Source: Tetradesmus obliquus
Lineage: Eukaryota; Chlorophyta; Chlorophyceae; Sphaeropleales; Scenedesmaceae
Assembly: GCA_030272155.1 (NCBI GenBank)
Contig: CP126195.1
Span: forward strand, 1,967,001-2,031,000
Length of the DNA: 64,000 bases
Direction: 5' to 3'
Of this stretch, positions 1 to 64,000 are shown piece after piece. Made by a program: the position numbers and the translations under genes. The notes beneath the pieces were generated by a model that saw only the letters and a program-made list of their open reading frames with translations, was not told where the DNA came from and did not search any database. The stretch's first letter is position 1. Every line of letters begins with the position of its first letter.

Positions 1-149
1 TGCAGCCACTTTCAACTTTATGGCTTGCAGCAGAGATGATGCCAATCCCTTCCACTATGGCCCCGCAGATTGTGATTCATGCTGCTGCATGCTCAGAGAA
101 TTTGTTGTGTGCAAACCTAACTGGTGTTGATTGGAAACTGCACTTGCAG

Positions 150-2890
150 GGCCACTGCCAGTGCAATTCAGGCATCACAGTGGGTCAGCAACCTTGGTGA
201 GTGGTTACTGACTTGAGCATAAACCGTTGATCAGCCTGATTCATACAGAAGACAGCCGAACTCTGCAATGTCTCTTGTTTCTTGTCATACTGATGAGGTG
301 CACCTCAGTACAAAGCCATAGGCCAGAATCATGTGTCACAATGTTGTCCAAATATGAAAAATTTATTGCTAAAGCATCTCACCCGCTGCTTCTCACCCGT
401 GCCATCTCTGCTGTTTGTGATGTCGCAGGTTTCTGCGTGGCGGACAGCGGCAACCTCGTACCTCCGACAACTGATCCAGCCTCTGGCAACGTGTGTAATG
501 GCTGGGAGACTCCCGTGGATGATTTGATTGCCCTGGGGCTGCAGGCGGAGATTGTGCGGAGGCTGACTGCACTGCCGGCTGCTAACCGGACCGTCTACGT
601 CGTTGGGCACTCCAGGGGAGGTGCACTGGTGAGCGGCGCAACAGCATGTGCAATATCAACCGGCACACTCAAGCAAAAGGAGCACATACTAGCACTGCAT
701 GTGGCTGTGTCTATCATGCAACGAATGCTACCATCAGGGGCTCCCAGCTGCGCCTGGTGCTTGCTGCTTTGTTCACCCAATCAACACTGTACATGTGTGC
801 CTGGGGCTGCCTCGCTCACTGCTGCACACAGGCCTCCGTGTTTGCTGCCAAGCTGCTTGCGCTGCAAGCTTCTGGGGGGCTGCCTACTTACAGCGGTGCT
901 GCAGTAGACCAGATCAAGCTGTACACGTTTGGTAGCCCGCGTGCTGGAGACACCTACTTTGCTGCTTATCTGGAGAACAGGATGAGCGAGCGCTACAGGT
1001 GGGGAGGAGCGTTGGTTGCTTACGCCTGCAGTTTGGGATGCTTTGTTATCAATCAAGTGCTTGCTGCATTCTAGCAGTATCTCCAGGGATTTTAACTGTG
1101 GTGCGTTGCTCATTCCGTTGTTGCTCGAGAGCTTCTGCCCTGGGCCAGTTACAGCTGAGCTGAAAGCCGCCAATGCAACAGCGTCTGCCATGCACACCTA
1201 CTTATGCGGTAGCGTTGCATTCTGCAGCAGCAGCTCACCGGCTGTGCCTTGTTCTCTGCCTGCTGCTGCTGCTGCTGCTGCCGCACCCAGGGTTGTGACG
1301 CGTTATGACGCCGTCCCTACTGAACCGTCTGAGAGCAGCGGCTACAGCCACTACAGGCCCTCCATCTGGTGAGTGCATGTATGGCATATATACAAACATG
1401 CAACGGAAACAGTGTCCACTTGTGTTGGTTGCAAGGGCTTCAGCCACTACAGGCCCTCCATCTGGTGAGAGCAGCATGCAGCGTGGCCCTAGCTCAGAAG
1501 ATAGCTGCATGCAGCAGAAGCAGGCAGCCAACCGGCTGTGAAAACAGCTACAGCCACTTCAGGCCCTTCATCTGGTGAGAGCAGCATGCAGCATGGCCGC
1601 CACTTAGGGCCTAGCCCCAGAAGTTAGCTGCATGCAGCAGAAGCAGGCAGCCAATCTGCTGTGACAACAGCTACAGCCACTTCAGGCCCTCCATCTGGTG
1701 AGTGATGTAGCCTTTTGGGGAATTCATGGCAGGAGCCGGGCTCAACAGGGTGGACGGTGGGTGCTGCTCTCAACTGTTTCCTACCTCCGAAATCATGATG
1801 ATACGGGTACGTCACCATGACTTACCAATCAACTTTAAAAACATATGGGTTGGTATATGATGCTGTGTGCGGCTGCGTCTGGGCTGTGTGCAGGTACCGT
1901 GACAGCAGCGGCAACCTGACGCCCAGCCCTACCCTAGGCTGCGTGCTGTTCAACCAAAACCAGCTGACCACGCCACAGCAGTCATGCTTCATTTCCTGCA
2001 ACTCGGTGCTGACGTGCTCTTATGGTGAGCGCTGGGTGCTTGCAGCTGAATAGGGACACCTGCAGCAGCTGCTGCGTGCAGCAGGCGATCCAGCATGCCA
2101 TAGACAGCAGGTGCCTTTGACAGCGCAGAGTCAGCGTGTGGCAGCATACGCGTTGGGCAGTATTCAAACTGTCAAACAGCAGCGCTGTCATTGCATGGCA
2201 TTAGCTTACAAGTGAAGCAGGATGCACCCAGTGGCTACTTTTCACAAACAGGGATCTGCAGCCTCGAATGCCACAGCAGTACGTCTGCTGATTGTGCTTG
2301 GATGCCTCATGAAGCGCAAGGTAACTTTGCACAAATGCACAACCTTGGAAGCTATCCAAACTGCGCGTCTAGACAAATGCAGCCACTCCAGACACCTGGT
2401 ATAATCAGTTTTCTCTGATGTGCGCAGGTGCTGGCGTGGACATTGCTGGCCAGCCCAGCAGCAGTTTCACCACACTGCCGGCGTGTACAGACTTGTCAGA
2501 CGCATCAGTCCGGGCACTGTCAAGTGAGCGCAACCAACCACATATGAAATGCAGATGCACTGCAGTGCATGATGCCATCTGCCGGTCTTACTAGCTGCAG
2601 CAGAGCCGGCAGATGGCTTAGAGACACTGCCTGTTGCTGACAATCATATGGTACTTACGCCTGGTGTTATGCAACAGTTACGTCATGTTACTATACATAA
2701 CAACACACTCTGTGACCGCACGCCAACTGCTGCAGGCACCACCGTCACTGGCAGCACCACCCTCATCGACCATGCCTCATACCTGGGCCTCGACATGAAC
2801 AACAACGGCTGCAGGGCAGACGTGGCCTTCATCGATGCTATCACCATCACACCAGGCACATTCTTTGGCTACAACTGCAATGCGCTGTGA
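150..2890 (+). CDS. Secreted class-3 lipase, C-terminal part (5' end outside window)
   Basis: Exons at 150-196, 429-628, 832-998, 1291-1368, 1894-2024, 2428-2523 and 2736-2890 (TGA) join in consistent phase to about 290 residues. The nucleophile elbow GHSRGGAL lies at about 604-628. The second catalytic exon carries TRYDAVP, the likely catalytic Asp, and GYSHYRPSIW, the likely catalytic His, so the triad of a fungal-type lipase (Lipase_3, alpha/beta hydrolase) appears complete. A cysteine-bearing C-terminal extension follows (CVLFNQ, SCNSVLTCSY, LGLDMNNNGCRAD), ending NCNAL. It is a paralogue of the complete minus-strand gene at 6280-14032 and has the same exon phases. The N-terminal half and signal peptide lie left of the window. 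Acyl-ester hydrolysis outside the cell is inferred from the family; the substrate is unknown. Confidence 0.85.
1341..1703 (+). repeat. Array of four exon-end plus 5' splice-site copies
   Basis: The 3' end of the lipase His exon (CAGCCACTACAGGCCCTCC, then ATCTG and the GTGAG donor) recurs three more times in the following intron. Donors fall after 1368, 1464, 1574 and 1697. The extra copies keep both the TTCAG or TACAG acceptor-like sequence and the donor. The first copy is taken as the real exon end because it is contiguous with the Asp-containing coding sequence. Confidence 0.9.
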
Positions 2891-62050: not shown

Positions 62051-64000
62051 ATGAACGATAAAAAGGTGTACAAATCTTTCAAAGTGAGGCAGTTTGCCAG
62101 CCCGCACCCTGCCCTGCAACAGCAGCAGCAACAGCAAGCAGCAGCAGCATGTGGCAACAGCCAGGAAGTGCAGCTGCCATCACAGCAAGTTCAGCAGCAG
62201 CAGCAGCTGCTGCAGCAGGCTCAGCTACAGCAGCAGCAGCAGGTTGTGCCAGACCACGAGCGCGTCATAATCCACTTTGACGTCGACTGCTTCTACTGCC
62301 AGGTGAGCTGCTGCTGCTGCTGCAGCCACGGCTCCTTAACAGATGCTGACAGCAAATGAACCGCATCAACAGCATGTTGGGTTTCTGCCTTGTCACATTT
62401 TAGACACTGCATTAGTAGTTCACCAAACAATCATTCACCCCTTACACAAAGCCAAAATACAACCCTGGTGCTTCGTGCATGCAATGATGTTTCATTCAAC
62501 CCTCAACCAACACCAACTGCAGGTGGAGGAGGTGCGCAACCCCTCACTGCGTGGCAAGCCTGTTGCTGTCACTCAAAAATTCCGGGTGGTCACTCTTCTT
62601 TCTTTTGATCTCTGTGTTTGTTTTTCAACTGCAGGTGGAGGAGGTGCGCAACCCCTCACTGCGCGGCAAGCCGGTTGCTGTCACTCAAAAGTACCTGGTG
62701 GTCACCGCCAACTACGAGGCGCGTGCAGCGGGAGTCACAAAGCTGATGGGATTGGGCGATGCACTGAAAGCCTGCCCACACCTGGCCACGGTGAGCAGCA
62801 GCAGCAGCATCAGCAGCAGGAGCTCTTGCTGATGCAGCAACTGGGATATATCTGCCTGGAGAGATTGCTATGCATCAAAGCAACAGCAGCGCCACCCTTC
62901 GTTCGCCCTATTGCTATGCACTGCTGGGCGTGAATCTGTCTGTCTTCCACCCCACACACCTTCACTCAGGCCTGCATTGCACACATGTGCACACCCCTGC
63001 TGCTGCTGCTGCTGCTGCTGCTGCTGCTGCTGCTGCTGCTGCTGCTGCCTCCCCCCCAGGTGCCTGGTGAGGACCTCACGCCGTACAGGGCCGCCAGCAG
63101 AGACATACGCGCAGTGCTCAGCAGGTGGGCAGGTGGCAGCAGCAGCAGCACCCGTGTCACGTGTTTTCACCATGTTAGGAGATGCGCATGCCCTGCCCTG
63201 TTGTTGTGTGCGGCCAATGCAGCACTGCGAACGTGCTCTGCCGCAGATTGCACGCGCCGTGGCAGTACAACATTCTGTAGCATGTGACCTGAACGGTGCT
63301 GCTGCTGCTGCTGCTGCTGCTGCTGCTGCTGCTGCTGCTGCTGCTGCCGCAGGTGGGGTCCCACTGAGAAGCTTGGCCTTGATGAGTCATGGGTGGACGT
63401 CACGCAGGCAAGTGAGGGGGCATGTGTGGGCATCGTTATGCATAATTGTAATGACATACTCGGTCGTGTGGGCTTTTAAACCACCTTCATAGCTCCAACA
63501 GGGGCTGTGCTATTTGTGGTCTGCGACTGGTGCTGCTTTGCTTGTTTTTCATCCCACTGCATCGGTCGCTGCTGCCGTTCTGCATACCTGGCTGCAACAT
63601 GGCGTGCCTCACCACCTTCCCTCAGCACCAACAAATACATGCGAGCACATCTACGCCTGCTTACGTCAATGAGTCTGTCGCCGCCCGCCTTGATCCTTTC
63701 ACTGCATGCAGGAGGTGCTGGCGCGCATGGCAGCTGGCGCTGGTGCTGGCAGCGATGTGCCTTCATTATATGAAGCTCCGCAGCTGTGGCCTGCCCACAT
63801 CGTGAGCTCCAGCATGGCTCTCACGGCAGACAGCAAGCACAGGCCGCAGGACTTGCGCGCAGCGGCAGGCGCAGCAGCGCGTTCAGCACAAACAGCAGAT
63901 ACGGCTTTTGCACAAGCACCAGCAGCAGGAGAGAGAGCGGCCGACAAGGCAGCAGGATGGGTGACTGTACAGGGTGTAAATGTAAACAGTGTACATGCAG
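62051..64000 (+). CDS. Y-family DNA polymerase, Pol iota-like (3' end outside window)
   Basis: Exons: 62051-62302, 62635-62790, 63060-63124, 63353-63407 and 63712 to beyond the edge, all in phase. After a Q-rich N terminus come VIIHFDVDCFYCQVEEVRNP (first metal-binding Asp), GKPVAVTQKYLVVTANYEAR (nucleotide binding), GVTKLMGLGDALKACP, VPGEDLTPYR, then LGLDESWVDVT, which carries the Asp-Glu catalytic pair. VTANYEAR, GEDLTPYR and the LGLDESWVDVT context match Pol iota better than eta or kappa. Role: translesion synthesis in the nucleus. The intron after 63407 uses a GC donor. The start codon at 62051 is the first in frame near the conserved block; a longer N terminus is possible. Poly-Ala-rich sequence begins near the right edge. 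Confidence 0.85.
62520..62600 (+). repeat. Extra copy of Pol iota-like exon-2 acceptor edge
   Basis: The acceptor and first ~60 bases of exon 2 (CAACTGCAGGTGGAGGAGG, coding VEEVRNPSLRGKPVAVTQK) occur at 62518-62583 and again at the real exon, 62635. The upstream copy then runs into a stop without a donor. Confidence 0.92.
62998..63349 (+). repeat. CTG tracts ahead of two 3' splice sites
   Basis: (CTG)n at about 62998-63047 precedes the acceptor at 63059, and (CTG)n at about 63298-63346 precedes the one at 63352. Both occupy the polypyrimidine-tract position. Confidence 0.9.

Follow-up and report, generated by a model that had tools for sequence, protein, structure and literature searches.

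Probable origin of exon-edge copies in Tetradesmus obliquus introns by recurrent tandem duplication of units of about 118 bp

Short tandem duplications that arise from adjacent single-strand breaks in plants are a candidate mutational source of short genomic tandem repeats; to our knowledge, no preference for a size of 118 bp or for exon borders has been reported for them. Tandem genomic duplication is also considered an origin of introns, and the available text of one review sets out the AGGT model of this process (PMC3443670). For duplications that straddle an exon-intron border, a single case, described in the accessible part of PMC4974935, was found in print. Here, we analyze a 64,000-nucleotide stretch of the green alga Tetradesmus obliquus (positions 1967001-2031000 of contig C5; hereafter, the window) from an assembly whose 17 contigs total 104.66 Mb, in which introns contain copies of the edges of their own adjacent exons. 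The G+C content of the window is ca. 55%; for the species, 57% G+C and 7.8 introns per gene are given in the available text of PMC5966456.

The last or first 40 nt of each exon were compared with the adjacent intron, with the splice consensus trimmed and a score of at least 18 required, in three regions: the window, a 200-kb tile of contig C1 and a 50-kb region of contig C9 (314 kb altogether). Exons of at least 40 nt were present at 854 junctions, and the 827 with a trimmed intron of 40-1000 nt were tested. At 97 of these (ca. 12%), the exon's own adjacent intron holds a copy of its terminal 40 nt. An earlier reading of the window, made from the letters alone (the sequence-only reading), had reported such reiterated edges and had named shuffled exon-intron pairs as the comparison able to overturn the report; length-matched introns of other genes gave 0.1 matches (mean of 10 draws) against the 97 in own introns, and the reverse complement gave one. 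The intron flanking the exon at its opposite end matched in 27 of 750 cases, and another intron of the same gene in 2 of 792. Donors (44/413) and acceptors (53/414) carry copies about equally often, and at least one junction with a copy is present in 26 of the 43 genes tested. By region, copies were found at 16 of 165 junctions in the window, 65 of 504 on C1 and 16 of 158 on C9, i.e., more widely than had been claimed. A scan for local direct repeats with offsets of 25-1000 bp (ungapped score of at least 20, simple repeats masked) retrieved 88 in the window, 317 in the C1 tile and 77 in the C9 region, while three far-offset control scans of each retrieved 0, 0 and 0; 0, 3 and 1; and 0, 0 and 0, respectively. 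These results confirm that the exon-edge copies are real, are not due to chance and extend beyond the window.

The anatomy of the duplicated unit was studied at 87 junctions of the window and the C1 tile whose nearest copy lies in the predicted intron. In the 67 cases with an offset below 200 bp, the copy is offset by 116.9 ± 17.3 bp. The exon share of the unit (median 42 nt) trades off against the intron share (r = -0.74) and is only weakly correlated with the offset (r = 0.22). Since the period is nearly constant regardless of the exon share, the copies appear to be head-to-tail units of ca. 118 bp in which the border takes a variable position. Offsets between all pairs peak at 100-140 and 220-260 bp and then at higher multiples, and nine arrays (window and C1), each including a predicted exon, are 86-98% alike across the whole unit. 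In being direct, head-to-tail and of near-constant unit length, the copies have the features of short tandem duplications or minisatellite-like arrays. Copying of the exon edge without the intron, which was suspected because the intron flanks looked unrelated, is disfavored by the independence of the period from the exon share.

Tandem duplication of whole exons, as in mutually exclusive exons, is not the pattern: copies of a whole exon with both splice sites do not characterize the 67 cases, although very short exons could still be copied whole. Among exons of at least 115 nt, the copied exon part does not exceed 74 nt in 23 acceptor cases, and the 16 donor cases include one outlier of 164 nt. 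The statement that the phenomenon goes far beyond ordinary tandem exon duplication is therefore right as to scale, with the qualification that the units mostly consist of part of an exon and flanking intron rather than of whole exons. Periods leave remainders of 0, 1 and 2 on division by three in 24, 26 and 17 cases, so multiples of three are not enriched.

Junctions were defined by an ab initio generalized hidden Markov gene finder trained on the window and the C1 tile (264 kb); the C9 region, outside the training set, served as a later test set. For the window and the C1 tile, the gene finder returned 38 genes and 386 introns with a median length of 241.5 nt. Some neighboring genes were fused (lipase 2, an unnamed stretch and the Cu-ATPase formed one model and were separated by homology), and some repeat copies were predicted as exons. 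Pfam searches with six predicted pieces placed four above the cut-off (Lipase_3, Actin, IMS and ADP_ribosyl_GH); the fasciclin-like piece, with a score of 21.8, fell just short of the cut-off of 22. The ATPase piece had no Pfam match, yet it matches copper ATPases in PDB. In the first 10.2 kb, of which two of the six frames were scanned, Pfam gave no match, the exons there being perhaps short or in other frames.

A looser masked repeat scan of the window found copies at 41 of 186 predicted junctions, 25 of them with a copy entirely in the predicted intron; several exons behind both counts are themselves copies. Merging by hand left ca. 17 distinct junctions; one of these, the ATPase donor at 22143, was overlooked by the masked scan and revealed by alignment. 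They fall in the two lipases, the unnamed stretch near 10.4 kb, the Cu-ATPase, the fasciclin-like gene, ARP6 and the Pol-iota-like gene. The sequence-only reading had listed six genes with exon-edge copies, and all six show them; it had counted more than 15 affected junctions, and 16 were obtained here at the strict score. Within its range of one to six copies, the numbers at one donor in each lipase are right (three copies in lipase 1 and six in lipase 2), and ATPase exon 20560-20797 is affected at both edges. The copies in the window are as follows:

1228..1368, + strand, lipase 1 exon whose donor at 1368 is the source edge (gene model, alignment)
1431..1473, + strand, lipase 1 exon edge with donor, copy 1, 91% (alignment)
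1530..1583, + strand, lipase 1 exon edge with donor, copy 2, 84% (alignment)
1659..1709, + strand, lipase 1 exon edge with donor, copy 3, 88-89% (alignment)
7606..8174, - strand, lipase 2, six copies with a period of ca. 107 of the exon edge with donor 8262, in the following intron
10506..10608, - strand, unnamed gene stretch, acceptor-side copy of the exon edge at 10445
18461..19149, - strand, Cu-ATPase array with a period of ca. 125, several copies of exon-edge units
19864..19986, - strand, two copies of ATPase acceptor edge 19712, with edge bases 19864 and 19986 (repeat scan)
20427..20466, - strand, copy of the donor edge of ATPase exon 20560-20797, 92.5% (alignment)
21000..21100, - strand, copy of the acceptor edge of ATPase exon 20560-20797, edge base 21042; in a second copy, the edge lies at 20912
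22143..22347, - strand, ATPase exon with donor edge 22143, from which three copies derive (gene model, alignment)
21361..21993, - strand, three copies of this ATPase exon tail with donor, at 21993-21829, 21739-21622 and 21481-21361, 93-97% (alignment)
22960..23074, - strand, one copy of ATPase acceptor edge 22810
40173..40295, - strand, copy of acceptor edge 40126 of the fasciclin-like gene, 74% (alignment)
56990..57461, - strand, copies of two ARP6 donor edges, that of 57125 with its edge at 56990 and that of 57566 with its edge at 57461 (repeat scan)
58340..58963, - strand, ARP6 array with a period of ca. 140, copies of one exon edge
59636..59848, - strand, copies of ARP6 acceptor edge 59523, 82% and 75% (alignment)
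60256, - strand, edge base of a copy of ARP6 acceptor edge 60149 (repeat scan)
62514..62593, + strand, copy of acceptor edge 62635 of the Pol-iota-like gene, 94%

The two lipases, at 20-2890 and 6280-10000, are inverted relative to each other and belong to a cluster of five lipase-like genes on C5 (C5:1938077-1976577), four of which share a strand while the fifth lies on the opposite one. Counted at one and the same donor, copies detected at E up to 0.01 number 3, 6, 1, 1 and 0 in the five paralogues, the single copies in two of them being short (28 and 20 nt). It follows that the arrays either change quickly in size, in both directions, or form again and again at a single site.

Other repeats were observed as well. 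Within the ATPase gene, positions 20221-20416 of the window hold a 12-bp unit repeated 16 times, part of which was predicted as a (GVFE)n exon; homology to ATPases suggests that it may be intron. In the C1 tile, a gene for an ADP-ribosylglycohydrolase-like protein (C1:1190001-1200000; tile position 193500-194900) contains eight units of ca. 104 bp comprising an acceptor and an exon start, with two alternating intron flanks; several copies read into an in-frame stop. Elsewhere in the window, a short dispersed repeat at 3796-3873, 4916-4998 and 35443-35525, whose copies are 81-95% alike and occur in both orientations, is possibly a small mobile element, an AAT repeat of ca. 54 units occupies 9099-9259, and the rest of the window is rich in CAG-type repeats. 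A very glutamine-rich open frame of 1,504 codons at 49802-54316 on the + strand was predicted mostly as one long exon.

Which of the copies is used can be judged from the proteins. An ATPase protein joined by hand so as to skip the copies aligns to the copper-exporting ATPase 3j08_A with no extra residues at the junction, and an ARP6 protein joined in the same way aligns to the solved ARP6 chains 6gej_R and 6igm_G, again with no extra residues. From this protein conservation, it is likely that the mature message lacks the copies.

The intron that remains next to the working exon is rarely short. For exons of at least 115 nt, less than 41 nt of own intron was left at none of 23 acceptors, where 9.8 such cases are expected if the border lies anywhere in the unit, and at one of 16 donors, where 7.0 are expected. 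Such a deficit would be expected if selection removes units in which the branch point or the tract is damaged.

The fate of the copies was followed after exclusion of those with an exon match shorter than 15 nt. The GT or AG dinucleotide is intact in 121 of 153 copies in a predicted intron (79%), against a neutral expectation of 0.82 with the rate used and 0.86 with the rate measured at first and second codon positions; splice signals are thus lost at least as fast as under neutrality. Maintenance of the copies as decoy or regulatory splice sites, which the sequence-only reading had offered as a role for them, is accordingly not supported. Copies differ from the working exon at 129 first, 144 second and 342 third codon positions. 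They contain 11 stops in 2,068 codons. With neutral decay simulated at a rate scaled to first and second positions, 14.2 ± 3.8 stops are expected, as are 320 nonsynonymous codon changes, where 292 were seen. Coding constraint as the reason for the third-position excess is weakened by the near-neutral stop counts. Identity between copies is 0.830 on the exon side and 0.682 on the intron side (75 pairs), which is not a test, the copies having been found by their exon side.

We consider it probable that recurrent head-to-tail duplications of ca. 118 bp survive where the splice site contiguous with the exon and ca. 40 nt of intron remain, and that they then decay. A unit straddling an exon-intron border would give the intron a second exon edge with its splice signal. 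The duplication presumably happens at the DNA level. Splicing would go on at the copy still joined to the body of the exon (the first donor or the last acceptor), leaving the protein unchanged, and the extra unit would be removed along with the intron. This unit may then decay, with some arrays reaching six or more copies, and unequal exchange between somewhat diverged alleles may enlarge the arrays. The duplications recur in three separate regions and at both kinds of junctions, with a near-constant unit and without acceptor units that leave less than 41 nt of intron.

Several observations weigh against so simple a model. Arrays comprising both exon and intron number 104, against 58.4 ± 6.0 under random placement of the observed spans, while intron-only (8 against 18.3), intergenic (12 against 33.7) and exon-only arrays (4 against 17.5) are fewer than under random placement. 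The simulated advantage of exon-edge arrays in detectability is only 1.36-1.40-fold, so an approximately threefold excess over non-coding arrays remains. The size peak at 95-145 bp is strongest in exon-intron arrays, with 80 of 125 in this range; intergenic arrays, with 3 of 13, do not share it (p = 0.006), and of the intron-only arrays 4 of 9 fall there, the non-exon samples being small. The intron half of the unit falls below 65% identity in 50 of 71 cases (70%; of the 87 cases, 16 with an intron part outside 25-200 nt were left out), while decay simulated with the indel ratio found here, 24 gaps per 354 mismatches, leads to ca. 41%, and four-fold more indels raise this to 56%, still under the observed value. 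Similarity ends within 15 nt of the splice junction on the exon side in 113 segments, against 32.6 with shifted junctions; it most often ends 5-7 nt into the intron, and segments ending on the intron side number 30 against 44.4. Synonymous codon changes between exon and copy amount to 315, where neutral change in the copy alone predicts 121; this surplus must either have arisen in the lineage of the working exon or reflect partial constraint on the copies. Differences between copies are also uneven over codon positions (49/38/112 in 49 pairs), though neither copy should be translated; new copies made from the working exons of a diverged allele by unequal exchange would cover both such codon-like differences and the low identity of the intron halves. 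Beyond the simple model, the residuals are thus the ca. threefold excess at borders, the excess decay of the intron part, the codon-like differences between copies and the 118-bp size. As to the earlier suggestion of an ongoing process that duplicates boundaries and lengthens introns, recurrent duplication and the surplus of exon-intron arrays speak for its former half; the latter is not borne out, since introns with a copy have a median length of 235 nt and those without one of 259 nt (p = 0.27).

The excess of exon-intron arrays over random placement, which detectability covers only partly, would be explained directly if a process aimed at exon-intron borders through transcription, splicing or exon-positioned nucleosomes made ca. 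118-bp duplications there. The size peak is present in exon-intron arrays and absent from intergenic ones, copies cluster by gene (chi2 106 on 36 degrees of freedom), and repeat copies span, by at least 8 nt on each side, 113 of 586 junctions on C1 (68.7 ± 9.2 after jittering) and 28 of 186 in the window (20.2 ± 3.6 after jittering). However, segments that span 15 nt on both sides and have their copy in the intron number 48 against 46.8 with shifted junctions, and most pair classes lie near the jitter null, the exception being border-border pairs (37 against 14.9 on C1 and 14 against 4.5 in the window). Under local jitter, the array-level excess is small (48 against 41.4 ± 3.7 on C1 and 13 against 11.4 ± 2.3 in the window), selection against splice-damaging units also influences where borders lie, and the comparison rests on 13 intergenic and 9 intron-only arrays. 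On balance, we regard border targeting as rather unlikely. A related and more far-reaching possibility, in our view doubtful though tenable, is a mutational process that preferentially duplicates ca. 118-bp border units, with exchange between alleles making the intronic copies and a sizeable share of intron sequence being recycled exon edge.

That the copies are maintained through use, as decoy or alternative splice sites or as alternative coding exons, is quite improbable. The exon part is much better preserved than the intron part, and differences between intronic copies lie mostly at third codon positions (112 of 199), as such use would predict; against it stand the loss of GT and AG at a rate at least neutral, the nearly neutral frequency of stops, and the fact that the copies are mostly partial exons whose periods are not enriched for multiples of three. 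Gain of the introns themselves by tandem duplication of an AGGT-containing exon, with later decay, is a known mechanism that the sequence-only reading had invoked, and the exon begins with GT at several affected acceptors. For the bulk of the introns it is contradicted by the repeats: in 385 introns, repeats whose offset matches the length of the intron were not enriched over permuted donor-acceptor pairs (counting those with at least 15 matches in 30, 5 upstream against 4.2 expected and 2 downstream against 2.55), and we consider this mechanism very unlikely. An assembly artefact, i.e., mis-joined haplotypes or reads, has in its favor a unit size close to short-read length. It is nevertheless unlikely as the source of the copies, because these are diverged and gene-specific, and we judge it the least credible of all the explanations: differences from the source of 7-8% at first and second codon positions would be too many for alleles of a working exon, contig C1 measures 11.1 Mb, and arrays differ among paralogues.

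With many affected junctions in one genome, the fate of a duplicated splice site becomes measurable, including which copy wins, what spacing it requires and how fast the loser decays, and the introns form an unusually dense record of remodeling. Such copies will mislead gene prediction and domain-repeat calls; the gene finder used here took several of them for exons.

In the literature searched, which left most subscription journals outside, we found no border-straddling duplications at this density and no 118-bp unit. As in the AGGT model, as far as the available text of PMC3443670 describes it, a short head-to-tail duplication within a gene duplicates splice signals; in that model an exonic segment becomes an intron, whereas here the unit straddles an existing border and the offset differs from intron length. 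Introners, in the available account (PMC9860276), likewise remodel introns genome-wide; here, a comparison of 477 introns revealed no sequence family common to introns of unrelated genes, with 54 matches within genes and three between genes, all three between two lipase paralogues. The potato RdRp case, in the accessible part of PMC4974935, resembles ours in that the duplicated segment holds intron-exon structure, branch site, tract and 3' splice site. It is one case, with a new intron and an inserted exon, whereas in T. obliquus many junctions are involved, several per gene, the copies apparently lie within an old intron, and arrays reach up to six copies. The mechanism most likely belongs to short tandem duplication, of which it is an unusual variant: dense, of near-constant size and concentrated on exon edges.

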